NCBI GenBank assembly: GCA_029252265.1
Contig: JAQXBT010000019.1
Location: 1 to 45,158, forward strand
DNA: 45,158 nucleotides
Origin: Flavobacteriaceae bacterium
GTDB lineage: Bacteria; Bacteroidota; Bacteroidia; Flavobacteriales; Flavobacteriaceae
Reading direction: 5' to 3'
A program made the translations under genes and the position numbers. Each line of letters begins with the position of its first letter. Position 1 is the first letter of the stretch. The notes under the pieces were generated by a model. It ran no database searches, was not told the origin of the DNA, and saw nothing but the letters and a program-made list of their open reading frames with translations. Below, one piece after another: positions 27,197 through 35,462 of the stretch.

Positions 27197-27224
27197 AAAA
27201 ATCCCGATTCGTCGGGATTTTTTT
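27197..27224. terminator. Bidirectional Rho-independent terminator between recA and plsC
   Basis: AAAATCCCGA and TCGGGATTTT form a perfect 10-bp stem around a TTCG tetraloop, with T tracts on both strands. It ends recA, and its right arm touches the plsC stop codon from the other side. Confidence 0.9.
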
Positions 27225-27969
27225 ATGCCTTTAAATCCGCTTCCAAAGAATTTGAAATGAGTCTAAAAACTTTTTTGCTTAATTCCCCAGTGTCCTCAAT
27301 TGTCAAGCTTTCAGTAGAGATCGTTGGATGTACTTGTGCGCGCATTTTTCCTGGGCTTCCACTAAAAAACGTATAGGACAAACGTTTTTTGTTATCAAAA
27401 AAAGTAATGGGGACTAATGGAACTTGATGATTGATTGCCAATCGAAACGCGCCTGCTTTAAAGCGGTCTAAAACAACGGACTCTTCTGGCACCCCTCCTT
27501 CTGGAAAAATACAAATGCTAGACCCTTGCTTTATGCGTTTTTGGGCTCTCATAAAAACAGCTTGACGGCTTTTTGCGCTGCTTCTGTCCACCAAGATACA
27601 AGTCCGTTTATAGAAAAATCCGAAAATTGGGATTTTTACCAATTCTTTTTTACCTATAAATACAAACGGATGGTTTTTAAACACCACCAACATCAACATG
27701 ATGTCGGCCATGGAAGTGTGGTTGGCTACAAACACATAGCTTTGTCCTTTAACGAGAGGCTCTGATCGCTTCACAGTCCAATAATGCCCCATTCCGATGA
27801 GGATACACTTGGCCCAAATTCTGGCCAACTTGAAAAAGAAGGGATGCCATTTTTGTTTTAATACGGACAAAAACAATAAAGGAAACATGGTCAGAATTGG
27901 CAGGGCTACAAGCACATAAAACCAAATTCGGTACAAAAGCCACAAGGGATATTTTATAATTTTAATCAC
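27223..27969 (-). CDS. plsC: 1-acyl-sn-glycerol-3-phosphate acyltransferase (PlsC family)
   Basis: Inner-membrane acyltransferase that makes phosphatidic acid from lysophosphatidic acid. About 248 residues with an N-terminal hydrophobic anchor, the HX4D motif in NHTSMAD (near residue 84) and FPEGGVPE (near 155) in place of the usual FPEGTRS. There is no ATG start: GTG 27969 or TTG 27975 are the options. I prefer the GTG because a TAGTTTTG -7 element (27980-27973) would place the transcript start on or next to it, giving a leaderless mRNA. The family is clear; the acyl acceptor is inferred. Confidence 0.9.
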   Translation of the reverse strand: MIKIIKYPLWLLYRIWFYVLVALPILTMFPLLFLSVLKQKWHPFFFKLARIWAKCILIGMGHYWTVKRSEPLVKGQSYVFVANHTSMADIMLMLVVFKNHPFVFIGKKELVKIPIFGFFYKRTCILVDRSSAKSRQAVFMRAQKRIKQGSSICIFPEGGVPEESVVLDRFKAGAFRLAINHQVPLVPITFFDNKKRLSYTFFSGSPGKMRAQVHPTISTESLTIEDTGELSKKVFRLISNSLEADLKA

Positions 27970-28025
27970 ATTCAAAACTACTAAAAAAAAAGGGCTATTG
28001 CCTCAAAAAAAGTACCTTTGCTATT
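27970..28025. repeat. 56-bp direct repeat, copy 1 (plsC side)
   Basis: Aligned without gaps to 29870-29925, exactly 1,900 bp away; by eye 48 of 56 bases agree. The shared core TCAAAAAAAGTACCTTTGCT is identical. In this copy the TTG at -33 of the plus-direction promoter is changed to AAG (27990-27992), while the minus-direction -7 element for plsC is intact. Confidence 0.8.
27973..28006 (-). promoter_or_regulatory. Candidate plsC promoter
   Basis: Minus-strand TAGTTTTG (27980-27973) fits TAnnTTTG. A TTG (28006-28004) lies 23 bp upstream, at the long end of normal spacing. Transcription would begin about 27969, at the proposed GTG start. The segment is inside the 56-bp duplicated block. Confidence 0.45.
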
Positions 28026-28274
28026 GTTTCAGATTAAAAAATAAAAACTGGGTAATTTTTTTTGGGAACGTTTTTAATTAAAATAGTGGCCTTATTTAGC
28101 CGCTATTAAATAATTTTTGTTACTTTTATAAAAGATTTAGATCCCAAATCTGATTCTTCACAAATCAATACAACTTTAAATCAAGATATTAAGACTCTGT
28201 AGTTACACAGCGGTGTACGTGTATGCGTTGTTTTCTAAAACTGACTGATTTATTAGTGCTTATAAATAACAACT
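28026..28274. other. Gene-poor spacer with hairpins, no coding region seen
   Basis: The gap from plsC to the protease gene is 436 bp or more and very AT-rich. Besides copy 1 of the repeat and the zinc-ribbon remnant, it holds a 9-bp imperfect hairpin (28082-28090 with 28099-28107, one G-T pair) followed by a T-rich stretch, and a small inverted repeat TACAC-AGCG-GTGTA (28204-28217). No tRNA or convincing ORF. The first hairpin could end a short transcript from copy 1, but that promoter looks damaged. Confidence 0.4.
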
Positions 28275-28415
28275 ATGACTAACAAAGAATATCAAAAATG
28301 TGATACGCTGAATTCAAGTTTATCAAAATATTGATCTCAATGTGGTAATGAATTACTAAAGAGAAAAAAGATTTTACTTTTAATATTCACTTTTAAAATA
28401 ATTAATAATCTATGA
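28275..28415 (+). pseudogene. Remnant of a small zinc-ribbon plus TM protein
   Basis: From ATG 28275 the frame reads 19 codons to an in-frame TGA (28332-28334) and continues as SQCGNELLKRKKILLLIF to a second TGA at 28413-28415. The layout fits a zinc-ribbon protein of the FCxxCG...FCSQCG type followed by a basic stretch and a membrane helix. The first cysteine of knuckle one is tyrosine (EYQKC) and that of knuckle two is the TGA. Loss of both makes a working zinc site impossible, so this is most likely a dead gene. The match rests on a short motif only. Confidence 0.4.
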
Positions 28416-29743
28416 AAAAAATTAACATTTATTCAACCCTACTACTTTTGTCTCTAATGGCGATTGTAAGTTGTGAAAAAGAAAACTTGAGCACTCCTAA
28501 ACAGTCAATTAACATGATTGAAGAAAATGAGTCCATTAAAATGATTAAAAAGAACGAATTAAGTAAAGAAGCATCAGAATTACTAGATAAAATTAATTTG
28601 AATGATACGGCAGAAAAAGAAGTGTTTAAATTCGATTTGGATAAAATATTATCGGAAGGCGTCATTGATTTAAATGCTGCATCTTCTAAAATACTGTCTG
28701 GTAAATTTACTATTGTGTCGAGTTCAACTAAAGCCTCAGGAAATCAAATATTAAAATTAAAATCTCCACAAAATGAGATAAAACTTCCAGATGGAAGTCT
28801 GCAAGAAGAATTAGAAAAATATACGTATCAAACATTAGTAATTGACGAAGCAAATGGGGCGTTTTATGGGAGTTTGAGAATTGGTGATCAGTATGGCACG
28901 ATCTCTTCTATAGGAAAAGGTGAGGCAGTTCTTATAAAAATAGATGTAGCCAAAATGGGTAATAAAACGTGCGAAACGGTAAAAGAAAATGCACAACGTG
29001 TTAAGTCTAATAATAAACTCAATGAAAATAATAGAGTATCAATATCGCAACCGACTATCAAGGTTTTGATACTTTACTCTGAAGGGACTAATGCAGCGGC
29101 TTTTATGACGGCCGTTTCGTGGTTTGGAAATATGTTAGCTGACTACATGGCAAATGAATTTAATGAAGCGACGAAAGGAGAGGTTAATTTTGTAGTAACT
29201 GCTAATGTTGCTCCAAACACAAATTTTAACGTATATAAAGGAGGAGGTTTTGTTTCGGTTAAAGTATATGCTAATATCGTAAGAGAGGATGCAAATCTTG
29301 TTCAATATGTAGTTCAGAACGCTAACGTTGGCAGCAGTGGAGAACAAGGAGCAGGTGACCTAAATGACTTTTTTTCAGTAATAAGAGAAGGGGCTATGAT
29401 TTCAATTCGTGGAAGTATTCACGAGATTGGACACAATTTTGGGATGCACCACGATTGGAATCAAAATAAAAATGCAGATTGTTTTCATGGAGGTTTAATT
29501 AAGATGTCTTTTTGGGGGAGTCAAAAGATCCCCATTGCTAGAACAATAATGAGTTATCCCCATCTATCTCTCCCTCTTGTAAATAACTTTTCTTCAGCTG
29601 GTAGTCCTATTTTATCTTCTCGGTATTTATCTATGTATAATGGTACGCCATGTACAGCAACAGGTACTACAACAGGAACAGGGCCTGCGAACAATTTTGA
29701 TCGTATCAGAACTCAAAAAAATATCATTGCTAATTGGAAATAA
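28412..29743 (+). CDS. Lipoprotein metzincin metalloprotease (M12-like)
   Basis: 443 residues with a lipoprotein signal ending at C21 (LLLSLMAIVSC), a ~190-residue N-terminal part that may be a propeptide, and a C-terminal zinc protease domain beginning near KVLILYSEGTNAA. The zinc motif HEIGHNFGMHHD has ligands H337, H341 and H347 with catalytic E338. The Met-turn is TIMSYPH (M380). This is the reprolysin-like metzincin pattern. C187 in the N-terminal part could act as a cysteine switch, but that is speculation. The gene is more AT-rich than its neighbours, and a diverged 56-bp repeat flanks it, suggesting later insertion. Natural substrates are unknown. Confidence 0.88.
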   Translation: MKKINIYSTLLLLSLMAIVSCEKENLSTPKQSINMIEENESIKMIKKNELSKEASELLDKINLNDTAEKEVFKFDLDKILSEGVIDLNAASSKILSGKFTIVSSSTKASGNQILKLKSPQNEIKLPDGSLQEELEKYTYQTLVIDEANGAFYGSLRIGDQYGTISSIGKGEAVLIKIDVAKMGNKTCETVKENAQRVKSNNKLNENNRVSISQPTIKVLILYSEGTNAAAFMTAVSWFGNMLADYMANEFNEATKGEVNFVVTANVAPNTNFNVYKGGGFVSVKVYANIVREDANLVQYVVQNANVGSSGEQGAGDLNDFFSVIREGAMISIRGSIHEIGHNFGMHHDWNQNKNADCFHGGLIKMSFWGSQKIPIARTIMSYPHLSLPLVNNFSSAGSPILSSRYLSMYNGTPCTATGTTTGTGPANNFDRIRTQKNIIANWK

Positions 29744-29760
29744 CTAATGCTTGATTTTAT

Positions 29761-29795
29761 AAAAAAGGCTTGAAAAATATTTTCAAGCCTTTTTT
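29761..29795 (+). terminator. Rho-independent terminator after the metalloprotease
   Basis: AAAAGGCTTGAAAA (29763-29776) pairs perfectly with TTTTCAAGCCTTTT (29780-29793) around a 3-nt loop, followed by T. It is 17 bp after the stop codon, and the A run on the far side could make it work in both directions. Confidence 0.85.
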
Positions 29796-29869
29796 ATGGA
29801 TTCCACCCTGCTCCCCCACCAATCTTTTCGTGTGACTTCGATCTTAAGATATTGAAACCACAGCACTGT

Positions 29870-29925
29870 ATTCAAAACTCCTGAAAAAATTGAGTGATTG
29901 CTTCAAAAAAAGTACCTTTGCTATT
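29870..29925. repeat. 56-bp direct repeat, copy 2 (trpS side)
   Basis: Second copy of the block at 27970-28025. Here the plus-direction -33 TTG (29890-29892) is intact. The minus-direction -7 octamer is altered from TAGTTTTG to GAGTTTTG, so it can serve trpS but probably no longer a minus-strand gene. Confidence 0.8.
29890..29920 (+). promoter_or_regulatory. trpS promoter
   Basis: TTG (29890-29892), 20 bp, then TACCTTTG (29913-29920), a full match to the Bacteroidota consensus. The expected start is near 29925, giving a leader of about 20 nt to the trpS ATG. Confidence 0.75.
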
Positions 29926-29946
29926 CATTCGGTAATAAAATAAATA

Positions 29947-30915
29947 ATGGCAAGAATTTTAACAGGCGTACAGAGCACAGGTACTCCGCACCTCGGAAAT
30001 ATTTTAGGGGCAATTGTCCCTGCAATTGAAATGAGTAATGACCCAAAAAATGATTCTTATCTATTTATTGCTGATATGCATTCATTGACTCAAATTAAAG
30101 ACTCAAAAACACTTCGTCAAAACACCTATGCGACTGCGGCTACTTGGTTGGCGTTTGGCTTGGACATCGAAAAAACAGTCTTTTACCGTCAAAGCGATGT
30201 ACCACAGGTGACTGAATTATCTTGGTATTTAAGTTGCTTTTTTCCGTTTTCTCGATTGGAATTAGCCCATAGTTTTAAAGACAAGGCAGACCGGTTGGAA
30301 GATGTGAATGGTGGTTTATTTACGTATCCAATGTTAATGGCTGCAGATATCTTACTGTACGATGCCGATATTATTCCTGTTGGAAAAGATCAACTTCAGC
30401 ATATAGAAATGACGCGTGATGTTGCTTCCAGAGTGCATGCGAAACTGGGGGATGTTTTTGTGATTCCAGAGGCTAAAATTCAAAAAGAAAACATGTTAAT
30501 TCCTGGGCTCGATGGTCAAAAAATGAGCAAGAGTAAAGGCAATGTGATTGATATATTTCAAACCGACAAAGTTTTGCGAAAACAAATCATGTCGATTCAA
30601 ACCGACAGTACACCACTAGAAGATCCGAAAGATTGGGCGAGTTGTAACTGTTTTGCACTTTACAAACTGTTGGCTTCAGAAGCTCAAATAACAGAGATGA
30701 AACAAAACTATGAAGCTGGTAGCTATGGTTATGGCCATGCTAAACAAGCGTTATTTGAATTGGTTTGTGAATTGTTTTCCGAACAGCGAGAGCGTTACTC
30801 TTACTATATGTCAAACCTTGAAGAAATAGACTACGCCTTGGCAGTAGGCGCTAAAAAAGCGGCTACAATCGCCGATGCGGTATTAGGACGTGTTCGTGAA
30901 AAACTAGGCTATTAA
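29947..30915 (+). CDS. trpS: Tryptophanyl-tRNA synthetase
   Basis: Class I aminoacyl-tRNA synthetase charging tRNA(Trp). 322 residues with the HIGH-type motif HLGN (15-18), KMSKS at 192-196, and GKDQLQHIEMTRDVA between them. Length is normal for bacteria. It is a single-gene unit that converges on dprA; the two stop codons overlap by 4 bp. Confidence 0.98.
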   Translation: MARILTGVQSTGTPHLGNILGAIVPAIEMSNDPKNDSYLFIADMHSLTQIKDSKTLRQNTYATAATWLAFGLDIEKTVFYRQSDVPQVTELSWYLSCFFPFSRLELAHSFKDKADRLEDVNGGLFTYPMLMAADILLYDADIIPVGKDQLQHIEMTRDVASRVHAKLGDVFVIPEAKIQKENMLIPGLDGQKMSKSKGNVIDIFQTDKVLRKQIMSIQTDSTPLEDPKDWASCNCFALYKLLASEAQITEMKQNYEAGSYGYGHAKQALFELVCELFSEQRERYSYYMSNLEEIDYALAVGAKKAATIADAVLGRVREKLGY

Positions 30916-32025
30916 ATTAGCTCAAATTGTTTTCCGGGAAGTGGTCTTGTAACCCCTTTCAGTTCCAGATTTAATAATAAATAAGCCGCTTTGGACGTTG
31001 GGAATTCACAAGCGATGGCAATGGTATCTAAAACAGATTTTCCTTCTTTCTTTAAATAGTTGAAAATAATTTTTTCATCGGTATCAAGTTCAACAAACAA
31101 CTTTTTTTGCACCACTTTTTTGGTTGTTTCGAGCGACCAATTTAAAATATACGGAATGTCGGCCGGCGTAGAAACTAAGTGTGCACTTTTTGTTTTAATT
31201 AAATTATTACACCCTTTACTTTGGCTGTCGGTACTTCGACCGGGAAGTGCAAACACCTCTCTGTTGTAATCAAGGGCCATGGAAGCCGTTACCAAGCTTC
31301 CACCTTTTTCGGCAGATTCAATGACAATTGTGGCTTCGCTCAATCCTGCGATAAGCCGATTTCGTCTTAAAAAATTTGAAGGATCCATCACAGCTGTACT
31401 CCAGAAATCAGTCACAAACCCACCTTGATTTTCGATCAAATGTCGGAATTTGAGATGTTGTTTTGGATAGGTGTTTTGGATAGGTGTTTTGAAGGCCTTG
31501 CGCCATACACCCCACGGTTTGAAGCTGATGTTTTAAAGCCGATTTATGGGCCAAAATATCGGTTCCATAAGCAAAACCTGATACAATAATTGGATTGAAC
31601 GCGGCAAGCGTTTCTACTATTTTCTCACATTGCGAGGTGCCATAAGTCGTAATTTTTCGGGTGCCAACAATACTAATAATGGGTGTATGGTCCCATTTAA
31701 TGTTCCCTTTTTGAAACAATACAATGGGGCCATCAATACAGTGTTTTAATTTAAATGGATACTGGGTATCTTCAAAATAAAGCCCTTGAATCTTATGTTT
31801 TTCTATAAAACTAAGCTCTTTTTCGGCCGCTTTAAGATGCTTTGTTTCATGTAGATGTTTGATAGTAAGTGTGCCAATCCCTTCTATTTTTGAAAGGTTG
31901 GCTTTGGTTTCTTTAAAAACAGCTTCGGGGCTTCCACAGTGGTGAATTAGTTTTTTCGCCGTGATGTCGCCAATATTAGGCACGGCCTGCAATGCAAGCG
32001 CATATAGGAGTTGAGATGAGTTCAT
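30912..32025 (-). pseudogene. dprA: DNA-processing protein DprA, frameshifted by a 13-bp tandem duplication
   Basis: DprA loads RecA on incoming single-stranded DNA during transformation. The N-terminal part (from ATG 32025) has the helix-hairpin-like PNIGDITAKKLI and the Rossmann-fold IVGTRKITTYG and SGFAYGTDILAHKSAL. Just after NTYPK the frame is lost. The rest continues in another frame, with ENQGGFVTDFWS, RNRLIAGLSEATIVIESAEKGGSLVTA and a C-terminal winged-helix domain to 30912. The break is two exact copies of TTTTGGATAGGTG (plus strand 31461-31473 and 31474-31486). Removing one copy restores TYPKQHLKFRHLIENQGG, exactly as expected for DprA. The start is ATG 32025; the gene is otherwise complete and not decayed. 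Confidence 0.92.
31461..31491. repeat. 13-bp tandem repeat inside dprA
   Basis: Two perfect head-to-tail copies of TTTTGGATAGGTG plus the first five bases of a third. Because 13 is not a multiple of 3, one copy gives an open dprA frame and two give a frameshift. Confidence 0.95.
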
Positions 32026-32078: not shown

Positions 32079-35000
32079 TTATGGTAACGTTGTAAACTCT
32101 AGCTCATTACCATAGAATACTCCATTACAATCCTCGCCATAGGCTCTAAAATAATAGGTTGTGTTAGGTTGAAGATTATACATATAAGAATCATAAGACC
32201 CATTTAAACTTCCATTTTCAGATGAAAAATCATTAACATCATCAATTGTAGGGTTTGCGGATGTGCTCCAAACAATCCCTCTAGATTTCATTTCAGTGAA
32301 TGAGGTTATTGCACCACCCGATTGTGCTTGTGCTGAAGTGATATTAAATGCAGTAACGGTTTGTATGTCAATTGGTGGAATCAAACTAGGGTCTTGGAAA
32401 CAATAGGTGTCATCTAAATTATTTGACACATTAATATCTCCAAAAGTACAATCAAGACCATCGTTCACTAACACAAAGAGCTTACAAGGGAAGTCATTTA
32501 AATCTAGTTGTTGGTTGTCTTGAACTGTTAGACTTGTATACACCTTAAGTAATGATTCAAAATTAATATCATTTAGAGTTTGATTATAATTTAAATAAAA
32601 GGAATTGGAATTGTAGACTTTATCACCCGTTGTCTCTAGTTTTGGCATATGAACCTTTGAAAGACTGACATTACTTTGAACACTTAAGTTTTTGTAAACT
32701 GTTGTAAGTTCAGGGAATATTACTTCAGAAAGAGATTCATTACTAGCTATGGTTATTTTATAAAAATCTTCTAGACTTGGTGCATTAATTTCCTCCAATA
32801 ATGAGTTATTGTTGATAAAAATATGAGGCTCTCTCCAATCCTGTTTATCTTTTACATAATTTGAAGATTTTAAACTATCAAAATTTATTTTTTTTAATGA
32901 TTGATTATGATGAATTTCAATTTGTCCAGATTGGACATTTGTTAAATTTGTGAAGTTTATTTCCTCTAAATTTTCATTTCTATAAATTCTAATGTATGCT
33001 TCAAAATCAATATCAGCTCCAAAATGAATTATTTTAAGATTTAAATTTTCATAAATACTAAATTGATCATGAAAACCATAATTCCTACGATGTTTATAAA
33101 AGCTATCTAAATTAATTTCAATTAGGCTATCATTATTATAAATTTGAAATGAACCACAACAGCGATCATTATTTCCCTCCAAATTAGATAAATCAAGTTC
33201 ATTTAAATTTTCATTATTACTTATTATTCCAGATTCTCCTCCAACATATTGTAAGTTTGGCAATAAAAATTTCTCGATGTTATTATGGTCAATTCTTAAA
33301 GCAGTACCAACATCCCTTAACTTAGGCGCATTAAATTCCCTTAATGAATATTCATATTTTAAAGTGAAATTTCTCTCAATCCTATCCAAACTAGGGAAAT
33401 TAACTATTACTATATTACTGTAGTTTGGAGAGCCATATTCCCAATTTAAATTTCTTAAAGAGATTATATTTTGAAATGTGATTTCAGAAGTAGTAGTGAT
33501 TGTATAGTTTTCAGGGCTAAAATCTCCTGACTCCGTAGAAAAATTATAAATATGATTTCGGTTTGGGTCTTCGTTAGCTATTGCAATTTGATTACCATAA
33601 ACGGTATCCCCACCAATTGTGGTCACAAAAGGCCTTACAAATAATGAGTCTACAGGAACTCCAACCAAATCCAGCTCAAAAACTGCTGGTACATCTTTCC
33701 AAAATCCGCCATCATAATAGGCTTGCTCTACTTTTGGATCTAAGGTTGTCGGTCCACCAGTAGTATTATAACAAAGTCCAGCGGATGCTATATTTTGAAT
33801 ATTATCAGTTACTATTTCTGCGCCAAAGGTTACATCATTTGCAAAAACTATGGCTTCAATATTGTTAATTAAGGTTACATCAATTGAAGAACAATCAGAA
33901 ATACTTAATACCATAGAATCCTCTAGCTCTTCAAGACTCCCACATGAGTCATTTTGAGCTTTTACAGTAAGGGTTACTGAACCAGAATTAAAATCTTCAT
34001 TTGTTGGGACATATTTAGGATTAGGGGAGTTGGAATTATCAAAAGTTCCATTTCCACTAGTTGTCCAAAAAATATTGGTTGCATTCCCAACATTTCCTGC
34101 TATTTGAAAGATCTCTCCAGAACAAATTGTTGCATCAGCTCCAGCTTCAGCAGTTGGATAACATGTACTACAATCAGTAAAACTTAGGGTTCCAGTGATT
34201 GAAACGGCAGCACAAGTTCCTGGATCGGTCTCGATAGTATAAATGTACGAGGAACCGTCGATTAGAGTGCTGTCGGGGATGCCTTGAATTATGATCCGAT
34301 TTACAACAATCGACGAGGTAATTCCAGAAGGCAAGCCTGTAATCGTTACGCTTGATTGAGAATTTTCGATAAGGTACTCTATGGGTTCTATGGGCTCGAG
34401 AAGGCATGAGCTTAAGTTTTGCTCGCCAAGATCTAGCAGAATTTGAGGAGCTGGTTCGAATGTGATTTTTCCATAGGCAACTCTATTCGGACCATTCGAC
34501 TGTGGCACTTGGACTTGGTACTCAAAAGTACTTGTTTGCAATAGTTGCTGGGTAATTTTTCCAGAGATGACCAATTCATTGTTTGTAAGTTCAAAAGTGA
34601 GTCCTGATGGCAGTCCAATCACCGTTACTCCAGAAACTACTTCGGAAAATGAATAAAAAATTGGTTCAATCTCAACATTGGCACAAACCGATTGATTATT
34701 GGTTCCAGTGGATGAAATTAGAATAATGCTAGTATCATCGGGTGTAATAACAGTAATGTCCCAGCTTGTGCCATTCCATATCCATTGTAGGTAGTCTCCA
34801 TTTTCAACTCCGTCAGGAAGTTCAAAGGCAAAGTCATCACCATCTTCACCATCAGCACCTTTAAGTGAGTCTATAAATTCTTGTTCTGTTCCTGTGTTGC
34901 CAAGATCTAGCCATATCTCATAGGCCGATGGTCCTTCCTCGCCTGAAACACCTGGCTCACCATCTTCGCCATCTTCACCTGGATTACCTGCTTCACCTTG

Positions 35001-35462
35001 AGGCCCTTCAGTTCCAGCTCCTGGCGCATATAATGCAAACGGAACGGCTGTGAGTTGTTGTAAGCTTAATGCTTCGAAAGCGTTGCACTGTCCCGTAATA
35101 TCAAAATCGACTTTTAGGGATTTCATCGCAGCAGACCATTCGATATCGCTCCACTGACTTCCACCAATTGGGGTGCCTGTTCCAATTACCAAATTAACCA
35201 TTCCTTGAGAATCAGTAGTGGTTCTGACATGCTCTATATATTCATAATTCCCTGTTTCGTCAATGAGTGAAAATTGAAGACAGATCTCCTTATTTCTTAA
35301 TGGACTGTCTTTTTGATTGGCGCCTGGGAGTTCTACTTCGCTTGTATTTAGGATCAAAGCCTGATAACTAATTCCGCTGCGTTGGTCTTGAGCCGCTATA
35401 AATGCCGCGTTAAAGAGACATAAAAATAGAACGAATTTTAGAGGTTGAAATATATTCTGCAT
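32079..35462 (-). CDS. Large secreted surface protein: collagen-like segment, Ig-like and repeat regions
   Basis: 1127 residues, third gene of a surface operon (2 bp after the OmpA-family gene). Signal peptide 1-24 (AFIAAQ). Residues about 25-147 are a conserved N-terminal domain starting GISYQALILN. A collagen-like Gly-X-Y run follows (about 150-177, GPQGEAGNPGEDGEDGEPG), then a linker SAYEIWLDLGNTGTEQEF and a second short run at 201-208. The middle has Ig-like stretches and the PKYVPTNEDF segment seen in PKD-like domains. A repeat region (about 640-1010) has leucine/asparagine-rich units of roughly 20-25 residues, resembling receptor L or LRR-type solenoids. A fibronectin-like end (NLQPNTTYYFRAYGEDCNG) closes it. 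No T9SS C-terminal signal is seen. Likely an adhesin; ligand unknown. Confidence 0.8.
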   Translation of the reverse strand: MQNIFQPLKFVLFLCLFNAAFIAAQDQRSGISYQALILNTSEVELPGANQKDSPLRNKEICLQFSLIDETGNYEYIEHVRTTTDSQGMVNLVIGTGTPIGGSQWSDIEWSAAMKSLKVDFDITGQCNAFEALSLQQLTAVPFALYAPGAGTEGPQGEAGNPGEDGEDGEPGVSGEEGPSAYEIWLDLGNTGTEQEFIDSLKGADGEDGDDFAFELPDGVENGDYLQWIWNGTSWDITVITPDDTSIILISSTGTNNQSVCANVEIEPIFYSFSEVVSGVTVIGLPSGLTFELTNNELVISGKITQQLLQTSTFEYQVQVPQSNGPNRVAYGKITFEPAPQILLDLGEQNLSSCLLEPIEPIEYLIENSQSSVTITGLPSGITSSIVVNRIIIQGIPDSTLIDGSSYIYTIETDPGTCAAVSITGTLSFTDCSTCYPTAEAGADATICSGEIFQIAGNVGNATNIFWTTSGNGTFDNSNSPNPKYVPTNEDFNSGSVTLTVKAQNDSCGSLEELEDSMVLSISDCSSIDVTLINNIEAIVFANDVTFGAEIVTDNIQNIASAGLCYNTTGGPTTLDPKVEQAYYDGGFWKDVPAVFELDLVGVPVDSLFVRPFVTTIGGDTVYGNQIAIANEDPNRNHIYNFSTESGDFSPENYTITTTSEITFQNIISLRNLNWEYGSPNYSNIVIVNFPSLDRIERNFTLKYEYSLREFNAPKLRDVGTALRIDHNNIEKFLLPNLQYVGGESGIISNNENLNELDLSNLEGNNDRCCGSFQIYNNDSLIEINLDSFYKHRRNYGFHDQFSIYENLNLKIIHFGADIDFEAYIRIYRNENLEEINFTNLTNVQSGQIEIHHNQSLKKINFDSLKSSNYVKDKQDWREPHIFINNNSLLEEINAPSLEDFYKITIASNESLSEVIFPELTTVYKNLSVQSNVSLSKVHMPKLETTGDKVYNSNSFYLNYNQTLNDINFESLLKVYTSLTVQDNQQLDLNDFPCKLFVLVNDGLDCTFGDINVSNNLDDTYCFQDPSLIPPIDIQTVTAFNITSAQAQSGGAITSFTEMKSRGIVWSTSANPTIDDVNDFSSENGSLNGSYDSYMYNLQPNTTYYFRAYGEDCNGVFYGNELEFTTLP

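Follow-up and report, generated by a model that had tools for sequence, protein, structure and literature searches.

The JUMPstart/ops leaders are short conserved leaders that precede horizontally acquired operons. In integrons, which comprise attI, attC, IntI and cassettes, a promoter and a fixed left end are followed by oriented, exchangeable genes, and with mobile promoters and mobile attenuators, unrelated genes are preceded by copies of one 5′ regulatory sequence (for the attenuators, see PMC2965389). Subfunctionalisation proceeds through duplication, degeneration and complementation, so that each of two copies loses what the other keeps. The Bacteroidota primary-sigma promoter comprises a -33 TTG and a -7 TAnnTTTG; in one mapped Flavobacterium, variants of this -7 element were the commonest motif, with the box positioned at -12 to -5 (PMC9723704).

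The locus described here, located between the essential genes plsC and trpS in a stretch of 45,158 nucleotides from a member of the Flavobacteriaceae (the window), shares some features with each of these systems. Comparison of sequences established a duplication of the intergenic region, single-copy alleles in relatives, complementary decay of the two copies, variable contents between them, a dispersed leader element and breakpoints near this leader. The history that best accounts for the locus, to which we assign a probability of about 0.85, comprises an ancestral shared promoter region, one insertion that doubled it, complementary decay of the copies, and variable genes placed behind the leader, in which a protease gene is the current occupant. 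The locus provides a clear example, in many species, of an overlapping divergent gene pair accepting an insertion with the loss of neither gene, its control region being doubled and then divided.

Two Copies of the plsC–trpS Intergenic Region

The gene plsC (27223..27969, minus strand; Pfam PF01553, E = 4e-27) encodes a 1-acyl-glycerol-3-phosphate acyltransferase, and trpS (29947..30915, plus strand; Pfam PF00579, E = 3e-56) encodes a tryptophanyl-tRNA synthetase. A repeat search of the window returned, as its top direct repeat family, the segments 27970-28047 and 29870-29947, which align ungapped over 78 nt with 77% identity at a spacing of exactly 1900. A preliminary description had reported a gapless match of 48/56 bases between segments 1,900 bp apart; BLAST recovered it (27970-28025, 86% identity, 48/56), and the repeat search extended it to its true length of 78 nt. 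The repeat therefore exceeds 56 bp and spans the whole intergenic region, reaching from the start codon of plsC (CAC at 27967-27969) almost to the ATG of trpS. According to these searches and to an alignment with eight congeners and four single-copy alleles, the first segment (copy 1) now serves plsC only and the second (copy 2) trpS only.

In a search of the whole genome, copy 1 matched only itself and copy 2 (E = 1.7e-12). Its core, CAAAAAAAGTACCTTTGC, had exact matches only in the two copies across 1.89 Mb, with one extra site at two mismatches, and shuffled sequences gave 0.18 matches per window. The core is thus not a promoter motif scattered through the genome; such scattering is what the preliminary description had named as contrary to its proposal.

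That description had also held that a single divergent promoter region once served both plsC and trpS, and had suggested comparing their spacing in relatives. Most genomes used in the comparisons are incomplete MAGs. Among 78 named genomes in which both genes were readable, the spacing was below 150 bp in 47, and 45 of these carried -7 boxes in both directions, so that in relatives the two genes do share a compact divergent region, which bears the proposal out. Spacings above 1.5 kb were found, among the same 78, only in the genus of the window. Within this genus, nine genomes carry an insert and four carry one copy (G003, G005, G011 and G015, with 73 bp between plsC and trpS), so that the anticipated empty-site allele does exist. 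Both copies were found in the filled alleles of G000, G001, G002, G004, G006, G008, G009 and G012, and in the alignment both resemble the single-copy allele of the relatives.

It could be argued that two unrelated promoters became alike through the common flavobacterial consensus, given that TTG-20-TAnnTTTG is a general promoter form and that the TAnnTTTG variants are the commonest -7 motif in one mapped Flavobacterium (PMC9723704). However, the similarity extends over 78 bp that include non-promoter sequence, there is no third copy in the genome, and the single-copy alleles, which both copies match, contradict this explanation, making it very improbable. An assembly or binning artefact is also very improbable: the window belongs to a MAG, and contigs end at several of the leader copies, but the same arrangement was found in independently assembled genomes, including G009, where it lies in one 2.7-Mb contig.

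In a tree of trpS, plsC and recA, G015 and the outgroups, all single-copy, fell outside a well-supported group (99/99) that holds the filled genomes together with the single-copy G003, G005 and G011; three changes in total are needed, and the inner branches are open. Since these three genomes are nested among filled ones, the empty state is not simply ancestral in the genus, and either loss or import must be assumed. Their alleles have the copy-1 state where they adjoin plsC and a copy-2 state (GATTGC) further right, a pattern that comprises very few bases, and the single copy is probably the product of recombination between the repeats. Alternatively, an empty allele may have been imported.

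Complementary Decay of the Two Promoters

The decay was followed in an alignment of copy 1 from eight genomes, copy 2 from nine and single-copy alleles from four. The plsC -7 box, TAGTTTTG (of the form TAnnTTTG; 27973..27980, minus strand), was kept in copy 1 of all eight readable filled genomes (8/8) and lost in copy 2 of all nine (9/9), where the window reads GAGTTTTG. In most of them the loss is the same ACTACT to ACTCCT substitution, which a single old event would produce. From the box position of -12 to -5 (PMC9723704), the plsC transcript is predicted to start at or adjoining the GTG start codon (27967-27969).

In the opposite direction, copy 2 carries the trpS promoter TTG-20-TACCTTTG (29890..29920, plus strand), whose -7 element was intact in 9/9 genomes. 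The corresponding promoter of copy 1 (27990..28020, plus strand) is dead: its -33 TTG has become AAG (27990-27992), while the -7 element TACCTTTG remains at 28013-28020. In copy 1, this -7 element was intact only in G000, where the -33 was lost; it reads AACCTTTG in G008 and was lost in the remaining genomes. The retention and loss that the preliminary description had assigned to each copy (the minus-strand -7 kept without the plus-strand -33 in copy 1, and the reverse division in copy 2) agree with the sequence, and its view that each copy lost its unused half extends to every readable filled genome.

The trpS direction in copy 2 thus matches the Bacteroidota primary-sigma promoter fully, and the plsC direction matches it at -7, with no clear -33 established. 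The locus differs from an ordinary promoter of this class in that two of them occupy a common ~50 bp and were later shared out, one to each copy. The likeness to subfunctionalisation lies in these reciprocal losses; the difference is that what was duplicated is not a gene but a divergent intergenic region, now parted by inserted DNA.

Contents of the Insert

The filled alleles share ~250 bp after copy 1, and this common left part, together with copy 2, implies one founding insertion. In the window, the shared part includes an extended promoter-plus-leader element (28107..28234, plus strand), conserved in filled congeners and dispersed in the genus. It is followed by a degenerate zinc-ribbon-like frame (28275..28366, plus strand) broken by a stop (QKCDTLNSSLSKY, stop, SQCGNEL), recognised by reading the sequence and possibly a remnant of an earlier occupant. 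The present occupant is a predicted lipoprotein metalloprotease (HEIGHNFGMHHD; 28412..29743, plus strand), which carries an HExxHxxGxxHD motif and matches Reprolysin_4 with E = 5e-4, below the Pfam cut-off. The unit is closed by an intrinsic terminator with a perfect 18-bp stem and a T-run (29759..29797, plus strand), and the right tail of the insert (29812..29869) is common to G008 and G013 and partly to G001 and G002.

No relative of the protease was found at the plsC–trpS site or elsewhere in 59 related genomes. The insert of G002 encodes an alpha/beta hydrolase and a DinB protein, that of G009 a DUF4143 ATPase and others, that of G012 a DUF1016 nuclease and a Por-tail protein, and that of G004 a Por-tail protein; the inserts of G001 and G006 encode proteins without assignment, and G008 has no gene in its insert. 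A short gene-less insert like that of G008 was also observed, as far as the contig reaches, in G013, whose trpS is 99% identical to that of the window. It had been proposed that the zinc-ribbon/protease segment caused the duplication; this part of the preliminary description does not hold, because congeners with the same duplication carry other genes or none, which makes the protease a late occupant. The duplication predates the protease and is part of an insert that opens with the genus-specific leader.

The signs expected of transposon insertion with target-site duplication were not found. No transposase-like protein was detected among the ten insert proteins scanned or in the protease (small ORFs lay outside the scan), the two ends of the insert in the window are not linked by an inverted repeat, and the duplication, at ~78 bp, is not a short target duplication.

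A Leader Element Dispersed in the Genus

The leader core, AGATTTAGATCCCAAATCTGATTCTTCA, comprises ~28 nt (28133..28160, plus strand) and is preceded by its own -7 box, TACTTTTA (28121..28128, plus strand). Such a box was found at nearly constant spacing in 88 of 90 leader copies, versus ~6% of random positions with any spacing tried. As the box occupies -12 to -5 (PMC9723704), the transcript, here that of the inserted gene, would begin with the core itself, and the leader is presumably transcribed. Of the 82 copies whose surroundings are not truncated by the end of a contig, 80 have an ORF on the same strand within 500 bp.

A strict pattern of the leader was present in 15 of the 18 genomes of the genus, with up to 29 copies (G009), and its reversed control had no match in the genus. 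Among 297 genomes of other genera, only two single matches with three mismatches were obtained. A sequence model detected 46 copies in the complete genome of G009 and ~25 in the genome of the window, and at most four weak matches in each genome outside the genus. The leader family is restricted to this genus.

The leader belongs to no RNA family in Rfam, a candidate identity that was rejected: the only matches were far below gathering scores, and none was at the leader. RNAalifold predicted no base pairs in 40 leader copies, with no covariation support; hairpins seen by eye (AGATTT..AAATCT and CTGTA..TACAG) were not counted as evidence. Literature searches on the sequence of the leader and on the mechanism found nothing relevant. 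A near-palindrome, GTTCAACAATACACGCCAATTTGGGATGTATTGTTGAAC, recurs downstream of many long-form leaders.

Compared with the mobile promoters and attenuators, the leader differs in being conserved from the predicted +1, in having no conserved fold found, in not being traced to an insertion sequence and in its location at loci of gene swapping. It resembles the JUMPstart/ops leaders in being short and conserved, and differs from them in sequence and phylum; no NusG was detected in the genome of the window, which is incomplete. The locus also brings to light a dispersed leader family, absent from Rfam and from the literature searched, that borders accessory genes on their left side in a group of marine flavobacteria, and makes the uptake and expression of new genes by these small genomes directly testable.

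Probable Gene Exchange behind the Leaders

At a dozen or so loci, the sequences compared place the leader family on the left boundary of variable genes. Genomes that share a locus retain the gene upstream of the leader and usually differ in the one downstream, although at some of these loci several species share the downstream gene. Between copies at the same locus, the similarity ends before +130 from the leader start in 68/92 pairs, with breaks ranging from about +20 to +125. Between copies at different loci, it begins mostly at about -40 to -10, in 193/229 pairs with similarity past +90. The pairs are not independent, so that these counts describe a pattern and do not constitute a significance test, and breakpoints near the leaders follow in part from the leaders being alike everywhere. 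G008 and G013 carry one DinB cassette behind different leaders, with 94% identity from -19 to +659 and unrelated DNA upstream. At a second locus, the flanking genes are 71 and 41 bp apart in the leader-less G016 and G017, whereas leader-bearing genomes have the leader and variable genes, or, in G002, the leader with no gene behind it. The exchange of genes at leaders is well supported by these comparisons.

Some further observations were made at the secA locus and at cassette edges. In G008, three leader-led units follow secA in a row, including a type I restriction-modification set, and near-identical promoter regions precede the second and third units. At the secA end, G013 and G001 are 99.7% identical although their trpS proteins differ by ~8%, which points to recent exchange between species. 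A palindromic REP-like repeat, AAAGTTTGACTGCGTCGAATCTTTGATTTCCCGACTTT, recurs at some cassette edges in the plsC–trpS inserts of G001, G002, G006 and G009.

The proposed history can be outlined as follows. In the ancestor, plsC and trpS would have diverged from one ~73-bp region with overlapping promoters, and one early insertion, probably a single founding event, would have left the entire region on both flanks of the new DNA. Each copy being redundant in one direction, decay would have removed the plsC -7 from copy 2 and, by several routes, the trpS promoter from copy 1. The inserted unit would open with its own promoter and the genus-specific leader, behind which accessory genes vary from species to species at this and other loci, probably through recombination at or near the leaders. 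The comparisons identified no recombinase and no precise crossover site, which weighs against this history. The two copies would also permit loss, as recombination between them may recreate a single compact promoter, probably the case in G003, G005 and G011.

How the accessory genes move can be explained in more than one way. The leader could be only a regulatory 5′ element without a role in the swapping of accessory genes, which would proceed through ordinary homologous recombination between core genes on either side; this is a real possibility in view of the nearly fixed spacing of the -7 box (88/90), the same-strand ORF within 500 bp (80/82 uncut copies) and the high identity across species at some flanks, such as the 99.7% at secA. 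However, the same cassette behind leaders at different loci, with unrelated upstream DNA, is hard to obtain from recombination in core genes alone. The leader could instead be the attachment site of some recombinase, with cassettes moving as circles in an integron-like manner at many sites; leaders that sit in a set orientation to the left of variable genes, the tandem units at the G008 secA locus and the movement of cassettes between leaders would suit this idea. We consider it unlikely, since the breaks are spread over about +20 to +125 and not at one point, no recombinase was noted beside leaders at the loci that were read, the two better integrase-like genes that were inspected sit in other islands, and the integron integrase model had no match above its cut-off in 18 genomes. 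Such a spread of break positions speaks more for homologous recombination than for a site-specific recombinase.

An integron was itself rejected, as the IntI-type integrase model TIGR02249 scored above cut-off in 0/18 genomes of the genus. The loci resemble integrons in that oriented genes open to exchange stand behind a promoter and a fixed left end, and differ in their many sites per genome, fuzzy junctions, lack of an integron integrase and lack of a shown attC; a check for attC-like sequences found palindromic repeats recurring at some cassette edges, not all. We tentatively suggest that the ~28-nt genus-specific element at transcript starts may serve as a docking point at many loci, forming an integron-like capture platform without integron integrase. 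Accessory genes exchanged just behind the element would then come under resident promoters.

Elsewhere in the window, dprA appears split into two overlapping minus-strand ORFs (30912-31439 and 31408-32025), as if frameshifted, possibly through an assembly error. Finally, positions 32079-35462 encode a secreted-type protein of 1127 aa with a collagen-like GPQGEAG... stretch.
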